From a virus: DNA of 29,227 nucleotides. The notes beneath the pieces were generated by a model. The model worked only from the letters and a program-made list of their open reading frames with translations, did not search any database and had not been told where the DNA came from. The stretch is taken from positions 1-29,227 of the IMG/VR virus record IMGVR_UViG_3300032241_002703. The stretch is one strand, 5' to 3'. Below are positions 2,684 through 11,257 of the stretch, one piece after another. Numbering within the stretch: position 1 is the stretch's first letter; each line of letters starts with the position of its first letter. A program made the position numbers and the translations under genes.

Positions 2684-3622
2684 CTATAAGTCAAACAAAG
2701 AATCTTGATACATGGCGTTGGCATCAGGAAGCACCTTGAGCCATTCCACCGTTTCCAATCCAGTCATCACCCGTCTTGCCATGTGCTCAGATTTCAATTC
2801 CTCAATGGTGATACCATGCAAAGCAGCCCTTGCCGCTATCACATCCACCATGTGCTTGGGCACGGTATTGATGTGAACATCTTTGGTGAATCGGTTAGGG
2901 CTTTCATTGGAGGTAGATATTTGGCACAGTTTACCATTGTGCAAATACTTCACCCCACCCATAACTGCTGTATACAACCAGTAAGCGGAATCCACAGAAT
3001 ACCACGGCACTTGTCTTAACATGGTTTCACCGGTAGCTGCCAATCCATGAGTTTTTTTGTTAGGCAATTTCCGGTGCACATAATTTGCCCATGAGCGTCT
3101 AGACACCTCTGACAAATCATTTCGAGGTGAGACACAGATGTAGTCAGCCATGTCCGCCACTTCAAACATTCTTTGCTCCGACTCATTCTGGTGAAACACT
3201 GGCAACACCACAGGTCCAAATTCTTGGGTCAGGAGTTTGAAGTTTTCATCTGATGTTTTAATAGCGTCCGCTATTTCCTCTTCACCCGCTGTAACACCTG
3301 GCGAACCAGGAATCACATCCAAGTTAATGAGCCACACCTTTACATGACTTGGGATCAACTTCATCACATCATGGTAGGTGGCAATGAGGTTGGGCAACTG
3401 CACCTGTTTCCCCTTTGACCAAGCGGTGAAGGCGCCGGAGTCAAGAATCATCTCCTTAACCGCTGCTCCTTCAATTTTGCACAGTTCAGCCCACTTTTTT
3501 GCCTCTTTAATGTAATGGTCATGGCAAGAGCATAGACGGTAGTCAAATGCCCGAGCCAGCTTTTCCTCAATGGCGTCTGAACCGCCAATGGTGCCGGAAA
3601 AGAAATACTTTACCTTACTCAC
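2684..3622 (-). CDS. dpdA: DpdA, 7-deazaguanine DNA transglycosylase (TGT-like)
   Basis: DpdA is a relative of tRNA-guanine transglycosylase that swaps guanine in DNA for a 7-deazaguanine base. The product (312 residues from this start) carries ILDSGAFTAWSKGK, matching the TGT DSGGF catalytic segment, and a later PWYSVDSAYW block whose Asp is the likely nucleophile. It also has HGLAATGETMLRQ between them, typical of phage DpdA. The family usually lacks the tRNA-binding parts of bacterial TGT, consistent with this length. It directly follows queF and precedes the clamp and polymerase genes, which places base exchange next to replication. The start is uncertain: the GTG at 3622 overlaps the queF stop by 8 bases, and a TTG at 3637 adds five residues. 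Neither has a good ribosome site, so translational coupling to queF is likely. Confidence 0.88.
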   Translation of the reverse strand: MSKVKYFFSGTIGGSDAIEEKLARAFDYRLCSCHDHYIKEAKKWAELCKIEGAAVKEMILDSGAFTAWSKGKQVQLPNLIATYHDVMKLIPSHVKVWLINLDVIPGSPGVTAGEEEIADAIKTSDENFKLLTQEFGPVVLPVFHQNESEQRMFEVADMADYICVSPRNDLSEVSRRSWANYVHRKLPNKKTHGLAATGETMLRQVPWYSVDSAYWLYTAVMGGVKYLHNGKLCQISTSNESPNRFTKDVHINTVPKHMVDVIAARAALHGITIEELKSEHMARRVMTGLETVEWLKVLPDANAMYQDSLFDL

Positions 3623-4058
3623 CGCGATAGTACTCAAAAGTAGGCCAGAAAGGAATCCCGCCTCTGGGGGTGAATTGTCCTTCTACTTTCACATATTCTG
3701 GGTCCAACAGGTCAATGAGGTCTTGAGCAATCCGGGTCACACAACTCTCATGAAACTCCCCCACCTGCCTGAATGAGCCCAGATACAATTTCCAAGATTT
3801 TGACTCCACACACCACTCCCTTGGTTGATACTTCACAACTATGGTAGCAAAATCAGGTTGACCAGTCAAGGGACAGAGAGAGGTAAATTCAGGAGAAGTA
3901 ATTTTGATGCTGGTGTTAGCAAGAGAATTCCCCGCCTTTACTCTAATTTTCATCGGGTTGGGAAAGCGCTCAAGCAACTTTGGGTCAGCGCCGTCATACT
4001 GGTAAGAGGTGTCTTTACCAAGTGCTTTTAGATCATCTGTTTTAGAAAGTTTTTTCAT
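3615..4058 (-). CDS. queF: QueF, NADPH-dependent preQ0 reductase
   Basis: QueF reduces the nitrile of preQ0 (7-cyano-7-deazaguanine) to the aminomethyl group of preQ1. At 147 residues this is the short, single-domain type. It has the thioimide-forming Cys62 in TSLCPLTGQPDF with Asp69, the QueF signature ESKSWKLYL at residues 85-93, and FHESC followed by FTPRGGI near the end. All diagnostic positions are intact, unlike in QueC and QueD of the same operon. Its ATG lies four bases after the folE stop and the ribosome site AAAGGA spans that stop. A true QueF next to DpdA implies preQ1, rather than preQ0 or archaeosine, is the base supplied for DNA modification. That last step is inference. Confidence 0.95.
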   Translation of the reverse strand: MKKLSKTDDLKALGKDTSYQYDGADPKLLERFPNPMKIRVKAGNSLANTSIKITSPEFTSLCPLTGQPDFATIVVKYQPREWCVESKSWKLYLGSFRQVGEFHESCVTRIAQDLIDLLDPEYVKVEGQFTPRGGIPFWPTFEYYRGE

Positions 4059-4061
4059 TTT

Positions 4062-4619
4062 TCATCCTTTAATTAAACGCATTAACTCTTCTTTTGCTGA
4101 GCGATCCCACTCAAACAAACCTTTCATGGCAGAGGTCACTGTAGTGGATCCTTGCTGCCTTATACCTCTTGACTCCATACACATATGGCGACATTCTACC
4201 ACCACTCCTACCGCTTTGGGCGCCAAGGCGTTTTGAATAGCCTCCGCTACCTGACTGGTCAAGCGTTCTTGCACCTGAAGACGGCGGGCGTAAATGTCCA
4301 CCACTCTTGACAACTTGGAGAGCCCTACAATTCTACCATCCGGTATGTAGGCCACATGGGCTTTTCCGAAAAAAGGCGCCAAGTGGTGCTCACAATGACT
4401 GTAGAGTGGAATGTCTTTAACCAAAATAATTTGGTCATAGTTTTCTGCACCATCTTCAAAAGTTTTAAGAACATCTGCAGGATTGATGAGGTACCCACCT
4501 GCCCAATGTTCCCATGCTTTAGCCACCCGATCAGGTGTCTCAAGCAAGCCACCCCTGTCTGGGTTTTCACCGATAACAGAATGCAGTAAGTGCTGGATAA
4601 TGGTTTTCTTATCAGGCAT
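4062..4619 (-). CDS. folE: FolE, GTP cyclohydrolase I
   Basis: The enzyme opens the GTP imidazole ring to give 7,8-dihydroneopterin triphosphate, the first step of both folate and 7-deazaguanine synthesis. The 185-residue protein has [14 protein letters not shown] near the N-terminus, the zinc and catalytic segment [19 protein letters not shown] (Cys76, His79), and [12 protein letters not shown] with the second zinc cysteine at 147. The GLSKLSR and QVQERLT segments of type I enzymes are present. Its start overlaps the queC stop by 8 bases (ATGCCTGA), and queF follows at once. Operon context assigns it to preQ0 supply rather than folate. Family assignment is essentially certain. Confidence 0.97.
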
Positions 4620-5406
4620 TCCGCAACTCCTCTATCTCCTGTACACATTGCACATACCATTCCCCTGTTTGCTTGTAGTTAGGGGTGTGAGGTAAAGGCA
4701 TCAAACCTTCTGACCACGCTCTTACCACTAAGGGGTCAGGCAAGTCAGCCTCCAAAAAGCCCTGTGCCCTTAGCACATTGGCATGATTGTTATCTACTGG
4801 TGGGTAGGTGCCGTCATAGGAAGTATGTGTGTAGGCAAGAGCAGCGTAGCCCTTAGCAGCTATCATACGCTTGATGCTTGATGCTTTGGTGTCGTTGAGC
4901 AAAGGGGCGATCACTTTAAGCTTGGAGATACCCAGCGACTCATTCGCCATAACTTCAAAATCATTGCGGTAAGCTTCTGTGCAATCTGGGTAGTTAGCGT
5001 TGTCTGCCTGGCAAATACCTGTGATAAGTGTGAAGCAATCAGCAACCACAGCTCTGTTAGCAGCAACAGTGAAAAACAGAGTATTGCGCATGGGAACAAA
5101 AGTAAGTTCCACCCGATTGCCAATGATCTTGTCCATGGACTGATAATCTTCATATTTCTCAAGCTCCTCTTGCGGATTGGTTAAAGGTGATCTGCCTTTT
5201 AAAATTGGACCTAATTCTACTACTTCATGACTTGCACAACCAGCGATTCTGGCAACTTTTTTAGCCGCCTCAATCTCAAGCCTGTGCTTTTGGTTGTAGT
5301 CAAAGGTTACTGCATGAACCTCTTCATAGTGTTGCTTGGCTAGAAACAAGCAGGTTGTCGAATCCTGACCGCCTGACAAGATGACCATCGCTTTCTCTTT
5401 TAACAT
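4612..5406 (-). CDS. queC: QueC-like preQ0 synthase lacking the zinc cysteines
   Basis: QueC converts 7-carboxy-7-deazaguanine and ammonia to preQ0 with ATP, through an amide intermediate. The 264-residue product has the PP-loop SGGQDSTTC near residues 11-19, [16 protein letters not shown] and [12 protein letters not shown], all in family order. The C-terminal zinc site is not there: where bacterial QueC has a TxTCYNG block followed by CGxCxxC, this protein reads [20 protein letters not shown] (residues 193-212), with Ser, Asp and His in place of cysteines. The fold around it (VLRAQGF) is retained, so this looks like a diverged site, not a frameshift. The ribosome site AGGGA overlaps the queD stop region. 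It should still be catalytically active if zinc is only structural; alternatively the reaction may differ. Confidence 0.9.
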
Positions 5407-5408
5407 TT

Positions 5409-5861
5409 TTAGTCCCTTAGTTTAAAAATTGCTGAATTGGCGCCGTGCTCTTTCACCTCCACACTCACCAACCGGCATCTTGGTGAATGACTGTTCTTTG
5501 CTAACCAAGAGATTGCCATGCCAGCGCAAAGTTCTGCAAAGGCCTCACAACCCACCTTATCAACAACAACAATATCTGCTATACCTCTTATGTATGCTTG
5601 CTCATACCATTCAAGCTCCGGATCATCTTTTGCAACCAGCAGCTTGTGGTCAAACCAGCTTTCAAGTTCTGCCTTTAACGATTTAAGACTGCCAAAGTCA
5701 ATGACCCAGTTGTTATCATCTAGGTATTCTGCTTCAAACTCAAACCTAATAGACAAGGCATAACCGTGAATAAAGTGGCAATGACTTTTCGCTCTCCATT
5801 GTCTAAAAGCAGCTGACAGGCCAATCTCATGACCGTATGTTTTTGTTGATCTATAACTCAT
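5409..5861 (-). CDS. queD: QueD-like 6-carboxytetrahydropterin synthase, variant metal site
   Basis: QueD turns dihydroneopterin triphosphate into 6-carboxy-tetrahydropterin, the step after FolE. The 150-residue protein matches the PTPS/QueD family: [14 protein letters not shown], the catalytic pair FDHKLL (Asp71, His72), and the late Glu in EVKEHGA (Glu138). The catalytic Cys28 lies in [11 protein letters not shown]. The usual three zinc histidines are not all present: the first (in AAHRL of bacterial QueD) is Phe19 in SAAFRQW, the second is His32, and the third (HGH) is Tyr34. His27 or His29 may substitute. An AFRQW...HGYAL form seems to be a phage-associated subfamily, from memory and unchecked. 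The ATG overlaps the queE stop as ATGA. Confidence 0.87.
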
Positions 5862-6571
5862 GGCAATCCAATCATTTTGTGGGTTTGTAAAGTTAGCCGA
5901 TAGTCATGTTCCATGCACAATTTGGCGGCTAGTTGGGTGTTGACAAAAGTGGTGTCCCAATCGGGATCGCCTTTCTTATCGTATTCCGCCATCGGTTGAA
6001 GCCAGATGGTATCAGTTGGGCGCTTGGGATGGAAAATGTACAGCTTCTCCCCTTTGCGCTGTGTAGATTTATTGGGCAAACCGTCATACGGATCTGTTTC
6101 ACCGTCTTTGATAATGTATTTCCAATGGTAACAATTGGCCTCAATCATTGGATGCACACTTCCTGTTTTAGGGGAACAAACAATTTCAATCTGCCCATCC
6201 CTTACTGGATGCCACAACTCATCTTGCCACAAAGTGCCAGCGGTTTCAATTTGAATCTTAAAACCATTAACAATGAGTGGTTTGCAGATTTCATATAGGT
6301 TTTGCCTGAAAGGCTCACCTCCGGTGATCACCACAAATTTACACGGATACTTACTTATCTCTTGCTGGATTTGAGCAGCGGTAAAATAAGTGGTTGATGA
6401 TTCAAAGTCAGTATCACAGAAGTGGCAACGTAAATTGCACCCAGCAAGCCGCAAAAACACCGCTGGCTTACCCGAATACGGACCTTCCCCTTGGATGGTA
6501 TGGAATATTTCTTGAACCCAGAAATGCCCCGTTCCTAAATCCTGCTTAAGTATTTGATTTTTTCCAAACAT
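5858..6571 (-). CDS. queE: QueE, 7-carboxy-7-deazaguanine synthase (radical SAM)
   Basis: QueE uses S-adenosylmethionine and a 4Fe-4S cluster to rearrange 6-carboxy-tetrahydropterin into 7-carboxy-7-deazaguanine. The 237-residue product starts with the substrate-binding block IFHTIQGEGPYSGKPAVFLR and then has the cluster motif CNLRCHFCDTDF with Cys45, Cys49 and Cys52. FVVITGGEPFRQ follows, then IETAGT and SPKTG, which are typical SAM- and substrate-contacting blocks. It is the first pathway gene of the operon. Its ATG shares one base with the preceding stop (TAATG), and GGAGAGGA lies upstream. All key residues look intact. Confidence 0.95.
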   Translation of the reverse strand: MFGKNQILKQDLGTGHFWVQEIFHTIQGEGPYSGKPAVFLRLAGCNLRCHFCDTDFESSTTYFTAAQIQQEISKYPCKFVVITGGEPFRQNLYEICKPLIVNGFKIQIETAGTLWQDELWHPVRDGQIEIVCSPKTGSVHPMIEANCYHWKYIIKDGETDPYDGLPNKSTQRKGEKLYIFHPKRPTDTIWLQPMAEYDKKGDPDWDTTFVNTQLAAKLCMEHDYRLTLQTHKMIGLP

Positions 6572-8210: not shown

Positions 8211-9749
8211 TCAGACAGGCAATTGAAAAAACCTATTGCTCTGGGGCTGGACAATGTGCAAGTTGCGCTTTGCCCTAGTGACTCCCACATACATCACCCG
8301 TCTTTCTGCATCTGGGTGCGCCAGGTATTCTTCATAAGTTTTCTTTGCCATGTCCAAGTGAAGCACCACATTATCCGCCTCTCCTCCCTTTACTCCATGA
8401 ATAGTATTAACGTGCACCTCTGGGCGCCCAGTCAATCCCTCTGAACCCAAAGTCCTAAGAATAGTCAAATAGTATTCCACATCTTCCAATGGAATGCCTT
8501 TGAGTGCATCATGCCAAATGGCATTGGTTTGAAGACCGAAATTGACAGTTAAATCTTCTATAGTAAACATTTCTTCATCATGCATTTTAGACAATGTTTT
8601 ATATCCTCTTTTTACCCCTTCATTCACCTTCATTTGCTCATAAACTTTCTTAATGAGGTGACCAGGTTGTGGGTGTCCTGCTCTCAGCTTTTCCCATGTT
8701 TTAATGGCAATCAAATGATTGTTACTGATAGATGATGCTCCATGTCTTCTTATGAATGGTATACCAAGCAATTTCAAATTCCTCTCTATCCCTGGTAAGG
8801 CGTAGATATTTCTTGCAAGTATCAACCATGAGCCATGTCTTGGATTTATAGGAATAGCCTCTGGACTATTGTGGTATTCAATACTTCCCATTTCATTTCT
8901 TGGCACCACATCTTTATGATACCTCTTTCCCACCTCTTGAATGATTTTTTGAGACAAGTCAAAAATTTGTTTTGGCATACGGTGACTAATACCTAAAATT
9001 TCTTTTTCACCCTCAAGCTGAAGAAAAGTGCCAATGTCTGCACCTGACCATGAATAGATTGCTTGATCATCATCACCTGCTATGTAGATGCGCTTGCACC
9101 TAGCAAAGGCAACCCTTAAAACACTCCACTGAAGACTAGAAAGGTCCTGGGCTTCATCAATGAAGGCAACCTCACAACTTAGCGGCTCACCTGTGTTGGC
9201 GTAGCGGGTGAGAATATCTGTGAAGTCAAGGATACCGGCATCTTGCCTGTAGACATCAAAGGCGGTGGCGATTTGAAGAAACATATGCCAAGTGAAAGCG
9301 GGGTTGATTAGAGTTTGATATACCTCTTCCAGAGGCATTTGTTTGACCCTTGCCAATGAGGCGTAAAAAAGCATCTCATCACCGACAGTGGCACCCGCAG
9401 TTAATCCAGTAGCCTCATCCACATTAGAAGAAAAAGGCATCTGCATGATCTTAGAAAACTCCTCCATATTGGCTGAGGTGATCAATTCATTTTTCTTGAT
9501 CTCAATTTCACGGTATGCCATGGCATGAATGGTTTTGAAGTTGTACAGGTCTGCTCTTTCAAAATTAAATTTCTCACAAGTGCGCCTGACTACCTCCTGT
9601 ACCGCTTTCCGTGTGAAAGAGACAAAAGCAATATTTTGAATGGCAACCCCATCCTGTATTTCTTTGTCAAGTATGTTGAGCAAAGTGCTTGTCTTGCCAC
9701 ATCCAGGTGCACCAAGAATCAATTTTTGATGACCGGTGCCGAGCTTCAA
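8211..9749 (-). CDS. UvrD/Rep-like superfamily 1 DNA helicase
   Basis: An ATP-driven 3'-5' DNA helicase of the UvrD/Rep group, 512 residues. Motifs appear in order: Walker A GAPGCGKTS (Lys19), motif Ia FVSFTRKAVQEV, Walker B FIDEAQDLS, motif III GDDDQAIYSWSGAD, motif IV GISHRMP, motif V NTIHGVKGGEADNVVL, and motif VI VMYVGVTRAKRNL with the arginine finger. It would unwind DNA at the phage fork or in recombination. The start is a TTG whose TTGA overlaps the primase stop; GGAG lies about nine bases upstream, which supports it. It is shorter than bacterial UvrD (about 720 residues), as usual in phages. It closes operon 1; AT-rich DNA follows, without a clear terminator. Confidence 0.95.
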   Translation of the reverse strand: MKLGTGHQKLILGAPGCGKTSTLLNILDKEIQDGVAIQNIAFVSFTRKAVQEVVRRTCEKFNFERADLYNFKTIHAMAYREIEIKKNELITSANMEEFSKIMQMPFSSNVDEATGLTAGATVGDEMLFYASLARVKQMPLEEVYQTLINPAFTWHMFLQIATAFDVYRQDAGILDFTDILTRYANTGEPLSCEVAFIDEAQDLSSLQWSVLRVAFARCKRIYIAGDDDQAIYSWSGADIGTFLQLEGEKEILGISHRMPKQIFDLSQKIIQEVGKRYHKDVVPRNEMGSIEYHNSPEAIPINPRHGSWLILARNIYALPGIERNLKLLGIPFIRRHGASSISNNHLIAIKTWEKLRAGHPQPGHLIKKVYEQMKVNEGVKRGYKTLSKMHDEEMFTIEDLTVNFGLQTNAIWHDALKGIPLEDVEYYLTILRTLGSEGLTGRPEVHVNTIHGVKGGEADNVVLHLDMAKKTYEEYLAHPDAERRVMYVGVTRAKRNLHIVQPQSNRFFQLPV

Positions 9750-11257
9750 AAGTCTTTCTCCATCTCAGGTATGCTAAAGTCTTCAGATTGTTGAGCAAAT
9801 TCGTTGATAGACCAGCATTGCACACATTTCCCTTTGATGTTAAATTGGTGGTGGGATGCCCCGTTTCGTCTCAGGGCTGCCCATTGTTCTTTGTTGGTCA
9901 ATTCACGGAAATGCTGCTGATCTAAATAGCGGGCAAGATCTGCAGAACGGAAATAGGTGCGCCCCTCTGCTGACCAAGGTTTCCCTGCTAACAACTCATC
10001 TTGATGCCTTGCCTGTGCTTGTCCGGTGCAAAATGCCTCTACCAATTGAATGAACCTGCCTTCTGTAGATGCATCTGGCGGTGCCTCAATGAGCTCTACA
10101 TTTTCTAATTTCTCCTTCACCATCTTTTCCCATTTAAAGGGCTTAATGCGGTTAGGCAACTTGTTAATTTTTTCCATGCAGATTTTTCGGAATTTGTCCT
10201 GTGACAATAAGTCATCAGTATTCAATTCCAACCGCACACCATCTACATCAATGATCCATGTGGGCGGGTCAGAGAGAATTTTTACAAGTGTGCCCACATT
10301 GATGGACGGTTCATCTGAATCACCTTGACCAATACCAAATTCACGGTGCTTACAAACCTCTTTGTTGCAAAATCCCACAATAGGTGCTTTTGAGCAAGGA
10401 TAGAAATAATTCTTCCGGTTCAAGCTCTTGATGACCTGACCAACCTCTTTAAATGGCAAAGGTGGGTCTACATAGAGCCGGTTGTATTCTGTGACTTCTG
10501 ATTCCCAGTCATCTCCAAACTTCAACCTTGAATACACCCCCATAGCAAACAAACCTTCATTCCTTGCACCTTGAGGAATTTTATTAAGAGACAGTGCTTG
10601 CAAGCAGGGTGGGCCATCAGAAAAAGATTCTGTCTCTTTAATGGCAATGCTGGAGAGTTTTTCTTCAGTCAGCATATTCTGTATGCTTTCCGCTCTCTTC
10701 AAAAACTGCAACACTGCTGCTTTTTTCCCACCGATGATGGCATAGCGATCTGTTTTATCAGAATCAAAGTAAGGCATATTGATCCAGTTGCCCACATCAC
10801 GTGTACTGGCAAGCTTTACCTGCTTGGGAAATATCTCCACCCCTGGATATCCCAATACTGATGCAAACTTCATCAAATAATTTCGCACCTTATCTGCACT
10901 TACAGGTGTGTTAAGAAACAAGTACAGGTGTGCCCCTCCTGACTTGGTACGGCAAGGTACAAGAGGTAGGTTAAATTCTTTTAGCTTGGCTTCCAACTGC
11001 GGAATGTCAAGTGGGTAGGTATCAATGTCAATGGCACCCCAAGAACAAGTGGCATCGTCACGGATAGGAATCGCCCCTACCCCCAACTTGCCTTCCAAGT
11101 GGTTAATCCACTTTTCTACTGTTAACGGTTCAAGAACAGTGGTGGCTCTTCCCGCTACTTTTCCAGCTCCTAAAGAGGCTACATCAATTCTATACTGTCC
11201 ATGTGCACGGTGTAGACCTTGGAATAGCTTCTCAAATCTTTCTGCTATTTCTTTCAT
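9746..11257 (-). CDS. AEP (archaeo-eukaryotic) primase-polymerase
   Basis: A 503-residue primase of the AEP superfamily. The catalytic acids are in WGAIDIDTYP (Asp77, Asp79), followed by motif II with the nucleotide-binding SGGAHLYLF (His110), VEIFPKQ, and NWINMPYF near residue 157. This spacing resembles primases of the TOTE type and other phage AEPs. A C-terminal region near residues 286-310 has three cysteines in FYPCSKAPIVGFCNKEVCKH, which may bind metal or an Fe-S cluster. It would make primers for the phage polymerase and lies between the SSB-like and helicase genes, with the UvrD-like gene overlapping its stop. The ribosome site before the ATG is weak (TTGAGA). A relaxase-like or bifunctional primase-helicase is unlikely, since no helicase domain is seen. 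Confidence 0.85.
   Translation of the reverse strand: MKEIAERFEKLFQGLHRAHGQYRIDVASLGAGKVAGRATTVLEPLTVEKWINHLEGKLGVGAIPIRDDATCSWGAIDIDTYPLDIPQLEAKLKEFNLPLVPCRTKSGGAHLYLFLNTPVSADKVRNYLMKFASVLGYPGVEIFPKQVKLASTRDVGNWINMPYFDSDKTDRYAIIGGKKAAVLQFLKRAESIQNMLTEEKLSSIAIKETESFSDGPPCLQALSLNKIPQGARNEGLFAMGVYSRLKFGDDWESEVTEYNRLYVDPPLPFKEVGQVIKSLNRKNYFYPCSKAPIVGFCNKEVCKHREFGIGQGDSDEPSINVGTLVKILSDPPTWIIDVDGVRLELNTDDLLSQDKFRKICMEKINKLPNRIKPFKWEKMVKEKLENVELIEAPPDASTEGRFIQLVEAFCTGQAQARHQDELLAGKPWSAEGRTYFRSADLARYLDQQHFRELTNKEQWAALRRNGASHHQFNIKGKCVQCWSINEFAQQSEDFSIPEMEKDF

Follow-up and report, generated by a model that had tools for sequence, protein, structure and literature searches.

QueC is among the few enzymes that turn an acid into a nitrile. 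A 2026 study of PF06508 gave the canonical signature as SGGxDS, YxQxHxxE, VPxRN, YPDC, Lys165 and Tyr189 together with a zinc motif (PMC13329287). Formation of Q was abolished by Y35A, R99A, Y131A and Y189A, and the zinc motif was regarded as a hallmark by which the family is defined (PMC13329287). The phage QueCs of CAjan, phiSM and BcepGomr and the Gat-QueC of 9g belong to the same pathway and the same type of gene cluster with DpdA as the QueC described here but, unlike it, keep the site cysteines. In an E. coli queC deletion strain, Gat-QueC of 9g did not restore Q in tRNA, yet it produced base for DNA (PMC6884629). Two further proteins, Cap9 (of type IV CBASS) and QatC, share the QueC fold and ATP site and modify proteins.

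The locus and its neighborhood

The window (the whole 29,227-nucleotide, or 29.2-kb, stretch of viral DNA analyzed) encodes on its minus strand, in order, a polymerase clamp, a DpdA-like transglycosylase, QueF, FolE, QueC, QueD and QueE. The transglycosylase encoded by the dpdA-like gene (2684..3637; PHROG 887, 2.6e-39) would put the base into DNA. The product of queF (3615..4058), a nitrile reductase of the QueF-II type for conversion of preQ0 to preQ1, passes the TIGR03139 preQ1 synthase equivalog cut-off (133.9 bits versus 86.9) and matches PF14489 (103 bits). Also present are folE (GTP cyclohydrolase I, 4062..4619, with the HCEHH and HMCMESRG motifs), queD (5409..5861; PF01242, PHROG 2389) and a radical SAM queE (5858..6571; PHROG 2076, with QueE models scoring below cut-off). 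Elsewhere in the window, a primase (9746-11257, minus strand) that matches the AEP-TOTE Pfam family PF22548 and a PHROG primase adjoins an SF1 helicase.

The queC gene (4612..5406, minus strand) encodes a protein of 264 aa that matches PF06508 at 153 bits (cut-off 22) and PHROG 1550. Its score is just under the NCBIfam TIGR00364 equivalog cut-off (142.7 versus 150.3), so annotation based on motifs or cut-offs will under-call phage QueC. The Rhodothermus-type QueC L159, of the kind described below, passes this cut-off (216.8), and so does L109 (195.8). Like canonical QueC (E. coli, B. subtilis 3BL5, PF06508, TIGR00364), the window protein has queD, queE and folE as neighbors and shares the fold (34% identity), the PP-loop and the signature motifs. 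It differs in lacking the zinc cysteines and, as do its closest relatives, in having an extra P-x3-NY tail at the C-terminus.

Loss of the zinc cysteines

The knuckle segment that seats the zinc cysteines in canonical QueC corresponds to residues 193-213 of the window protein (4768..4830, minus strand) and, as the initial annotation had stated, contains no cysteine. In place of the C(x)8CxxCxxC motif, alignment places Ser196 (4819..4821) at zinc Cys 1 (E. coli C188), Val204 (4795..4797) at Cys 2 (C197), Asn207 (4786..4788) at Cys 3 (C200) and Asn210 (4777..4779) at Cys 4 (C203), all on the minus strand. The segment aligns in register and without gaps with that of a Cys-bearing phage cousin (L100, SHTCYSGVFPPCGKCHACVLRAYGF). 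All four cysteines are likewise absent from 95 of 95 close relatives, which come from isolate phages, metagenomic viruses and bacteria, and chance or sequencing error is thereby ruled out. The loss is real and is not decay.

A tblastn search against phage records matched 244, of which the best 43 (47-61% identity) form one group; the 15 loci read from this group all lack the zinc cysteines. Of 80 further viral contigs contributed by a profile scan, 76 lack all four cysteines and four (L078 and L100-L102) have all four. Across 218 homologues, bacteria included, the four ligand columns hold four cysteines in 89 and none in 127, with two rows incomplete, and no intermediate form with one to three cysteines occurs among the 216 readable at the site. 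The Cys-less form is found in Sphingomonas phage MMDA13, Pseudomonas phage Iggy and Rhizobium phage RHEph04, all of the same type as the window protein. MMDA13 QueC is the closest isolate relative (61% identity to the window QueC), and the paper on that phage terms its QueC 'canonical'. Thus many sequences of this form have been deposited, as the initial annotation had foreseen might be the case, but we came across no comment on it in print. A literature search returned no description of a Cys-less QueC, and an earlier mention in the 2023 NAR papers on phage 7-deazaguanines (gkad657; Olsen, PMC10484667) is possible.

Other cysteines of the protein do not rebuild the site. C19, C132 and C142 are conserved in the Cys-less clade and are present in canonical QueC too. 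The suggestion that C254 might complete a standard zinc site is ruled out, since the C-terminus in which this residue sits is variable and members of the clade do not conserve it. Vibrio phage GR11A (L010:4489-6055) encodes two consecutive QueC-like proteins, both with Cys motifs, the second of which is divergent.

Conserved catalytic residues and predicted fold

Apart from the zinc cysteines, the window QueC keeps every residue of the canonical signature, including the SGGxDS phosphate loop, in line with the earlier remark that the PP-loop and other blocks are retained. Y35, Q37, H39, E42, VPxRN, Y131, D133, K165 and Y189 are kept in 95/95 of the proteins that resemble the window QueC (type 1) and in 32/32 of a second Cys-less type (type 2); SGGxDS, too, is retained in both types. 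The catalytic Tyr189, which lies beside the first zinc Cys, therefore stays though the ligands go.

An AF2 model of the window protein has a pLDDT of 96.7 (95-98 in the knuckle), and its best matches among solved structures are the QueCs 3BL5 (B. subtilis; Z 22.2) and 2PG3 (Z 21.3) and Cap9 (Z 21.3). In the model, helix 208-219 starts directly after Asn207, the replacement of Cys 3. An AlphaFold model of a type 2 protein places the start of helix 219-230 directly after Asn218, the counterpart of that Asn.

Two Cys-less types and their origins

Type 1, which comprises the window protein, phages and one bacterial order, has S/A, T/V/I, N/D and N/S/T at the four positions. Type 2 occurs in a bacterial order here called the Rhodothermus order, after the title of record L159, in a Planctomycetaceae MAG and in Adhaeribacter and has D, R/K/Q, N and S in the context THTDYNGDRSERHxWGYGRLDNPASILRARGY. 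The types share the absence of all four cysteines and the Asn directly before the helix, but differ at the C-terminus. A tail of the form R-x8-12-P-x2-4-NY, beyond the normal end of the protein, is present in 95/95 type 1 proteins (R229...P239-x3-N243-Y244 in the window QueC; 4675..4722, minus strand) and in 0/89 Cys-bearing and 0/32 type 2 proteins; it is absent also from Cys-bearing proteins nested inside the type 1 clade. Type 2 instead has GW at, or within a few residues of, its end. The QueC of phage Iggy (L007:4504-5562) continues at the C-terminus for about 90 more residues past the NY tail.

A tree built by a quick method, with the knuckle columns removed, puts type 2 on a branch of its own next to the CAjan/phiSM-like phage QueCs, and Cys-bearing rows break up type 1. 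In AU tests of 46 rows, monophyly was rejected for types 1 and 2 together (p 4e-6), for type 1 as a whole (p 0.001) and for type 1 minus the bacterial rows L109 and L132 (p 0.005). A single origin of the Cys-less form is thus rejected, and on these sequences type 2 appears to have arisen in bacteria, separately from type 1. The Cys-bearing rows within type 1 (L078, L100 and L102) may reflect repeated loss or exchange of the 3' end of the gene, between which the data do not separate. A coupling of S196/N207/N210 versus A/D/S-T had strong raw counts as a sign of direct contacts but was dropped, because it stems from just one switch in the phylogeny.

Cys-less QueC in bacteria

In a bacterial set in which several genomes are MAGs or single-cell assemblies and several are incomplete, the Cys-less protein is the only full-length QueC in 12 genomes of the Rhodothermus order and in the Planctomycetaceae MAG, all of which also encode QueF, TGT and QueA. 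In the order to which G004 belongs (genomes of ~1 Mb), one full-length type 1 QueC and QueF are encoded in 14/14. TGT and QueA were present in all 15 genomes checked, those of the latter order being G004 and G005. The Rhodothermus queC follows immediately on queD, with a divergent queF nearby. This gene content suggests that bacteria with a Cys-less enzyme as their sole QueC make queuosine.

Adhaeribacter aerolatus (L162:4467-9847) encodes consecutively queD, a type 2 Cys-less queC, DUF6884, NurA and HerA. A weak TGT-like match was identified on the same contig, and QueF was not found in Adhaeribacter. The row of genes resembles a 7-deazaguanine DNA-modification or defence island.

Function of QueC without the zinc site

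Because a large phage family and the sole QueC of two bacterial groups are Cys-less, zinc is probably not needed for the chemistry of the enzyme. The best reading of the sequences is that zinc is a structural staple that would have been replaced more than once in enzymes that still make preQ0. For the window protein, we consider it quite likely that it is a working QueC without structural zinc, with a knuckle held metal-free and preQ0 passed on to QueF and DpdA. On balance we also favor a wider claim: that zinc is dispensable for the nitrile chemistry, that it has been lost at least twice with different replacements, which share the Asn before the helix, and with different C-termini, and that bacterial orders and many phages use a metal-free QueC. 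The initial annotation had listed dispensable zinc as one of three options, and it is this option that gains from the sole Cys-less QueCs of bacteria with QueF, TGT and QueA, from the retention of the other residues and from the ordered knuckle predicted in the AlphaFold models.

Such an enzyme would convert 7-carboxy-7-deazaguanine to 7-cyano-7-deazaguanine (preQ0) in two ATP-dependent steps. In canonical QueC the four cysteines pin the loop bearing the essential Tyr189 onto the following helix. In the Cys-less proteins the Asn or Asp that replaces Cys 3 would cap that helix, with Ser/Asn/Thr and Thr/Val filling the other positions, and the helix cap and the conserved C-terminal tail would together stand in for the zinc staple. 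The product would then go to QueF, for conversion to preQ1, and to DpdA for DNA modification. We infer in this way the activity of the window QueC, its lack of metal, the role of its tail and the final base in the DNA.

It seems unlikely that Asp, His208, Asn or Ser, of which the initial annotation had proposed Asp and His, take over from the cysteines and still hold a metal at the site. All rows of the type 1 alignment have H208, and many members have Asp at position 3, as type 2 has at position 1, but C, H, D or E is found at none of the four positions in 56 of the 127 Cys-less proteins and at just one in the other 71. This composition excludes a four-ligand zinc site at the knuckle; weaker metal binding may occur there. 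Nor is H208 a newly arisen ligand, as Cys-bearing cousins (CHAC/CHSC) already have its counterpart. The third option of the initial annotation, that the enzyme stops at the amide (ADG) without zinc, so that the DNA base would be dADG or derived from it, is rather improbable, given that the window QueF needs the nitrile preQ0, that QueF-bearing bacteria have no full-length QueC other than the Cys-less one, and that the DNA of phage Iggy, whose QueC is Cys-less, is reported to carry dPreQ0 (Olsen 2023, as cited in PMC11008142). These points favor a nitrile product, although the preQ0 of Iggy could come from a host QueC. In a scan of 87 Cys-less viral loci (L103-L108 were left out), QueF occurs near queC in 30, ten of which carry its CP Cys in the form THICP, as queF lies beside queC in the window. 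The same scan shows DpdA with no QueF in view at 46 loci, as would suit an amide product; queF was not found near queC of Iggy or RHEph04. Consistent with an amide product, too, QueC acts via an ADG intermediate (PMC13329287) and dADG-modified phage DNA exists (PMC8306585).

That a degenerate or inactive phage enzyme leaves the supply of preQ0 to a host QueC is, in our view, very unlikely. Some phages with DpdA and no synthesis genes do have 7-deazaguanine DNA, for which the host pathway could be the source (PMC6884629; PMC8306585). However, the catalytic signature is complete throughout type 1, the replacement residues and the tail are conserved across many phages, and bacteria rely on the Cys-less form as their only QueC. 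The QueC fold is known to have been repurposed (PMC13279940, PMC13329287), and Cap9 is structurally almost as close to the window model as QueC is, but another reaction such as protein deazaguanylation, as in Cap9 and QatC, is the least probable of these alternatives. Both of those proteins retain the zinc cysteines and sit in defence operons, whereas the window gene keeps the substrate Tyr and Asp and lies in the order folE-queC-queD-queE beside queF and dpdA rather than with CD-NTase or QatA/QatB/QatD.

Natural Cys-less QueCs in otherwise complete pathways make it possible to test directly if the zinc has a structural or a catalytic role. They also supply ready-made sets of sequences with which a zinc knuckle could be exchanged for a metal-free version.

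Zinc residues in neighboring enzymes

A general saving of zinc by the phage is not supported, as the CEHH/C motifs are intact in FolE, although QueD departs as well. In the window QueD (5409-5861, minus strand), Phe and Tyr replace H16 and H33 of E. coli QueD, two of the three zinc histidines, and HGH has become HGY; C27, H31, H71 and E110 are kept. The altered QueD is encoded at 44 of 77 type 1 loci and also at three Cys-bearing viral loci such as phiSM, and so this change does not track that in QueC. The HGH motif is kept in QueD of CAjan and 9g.
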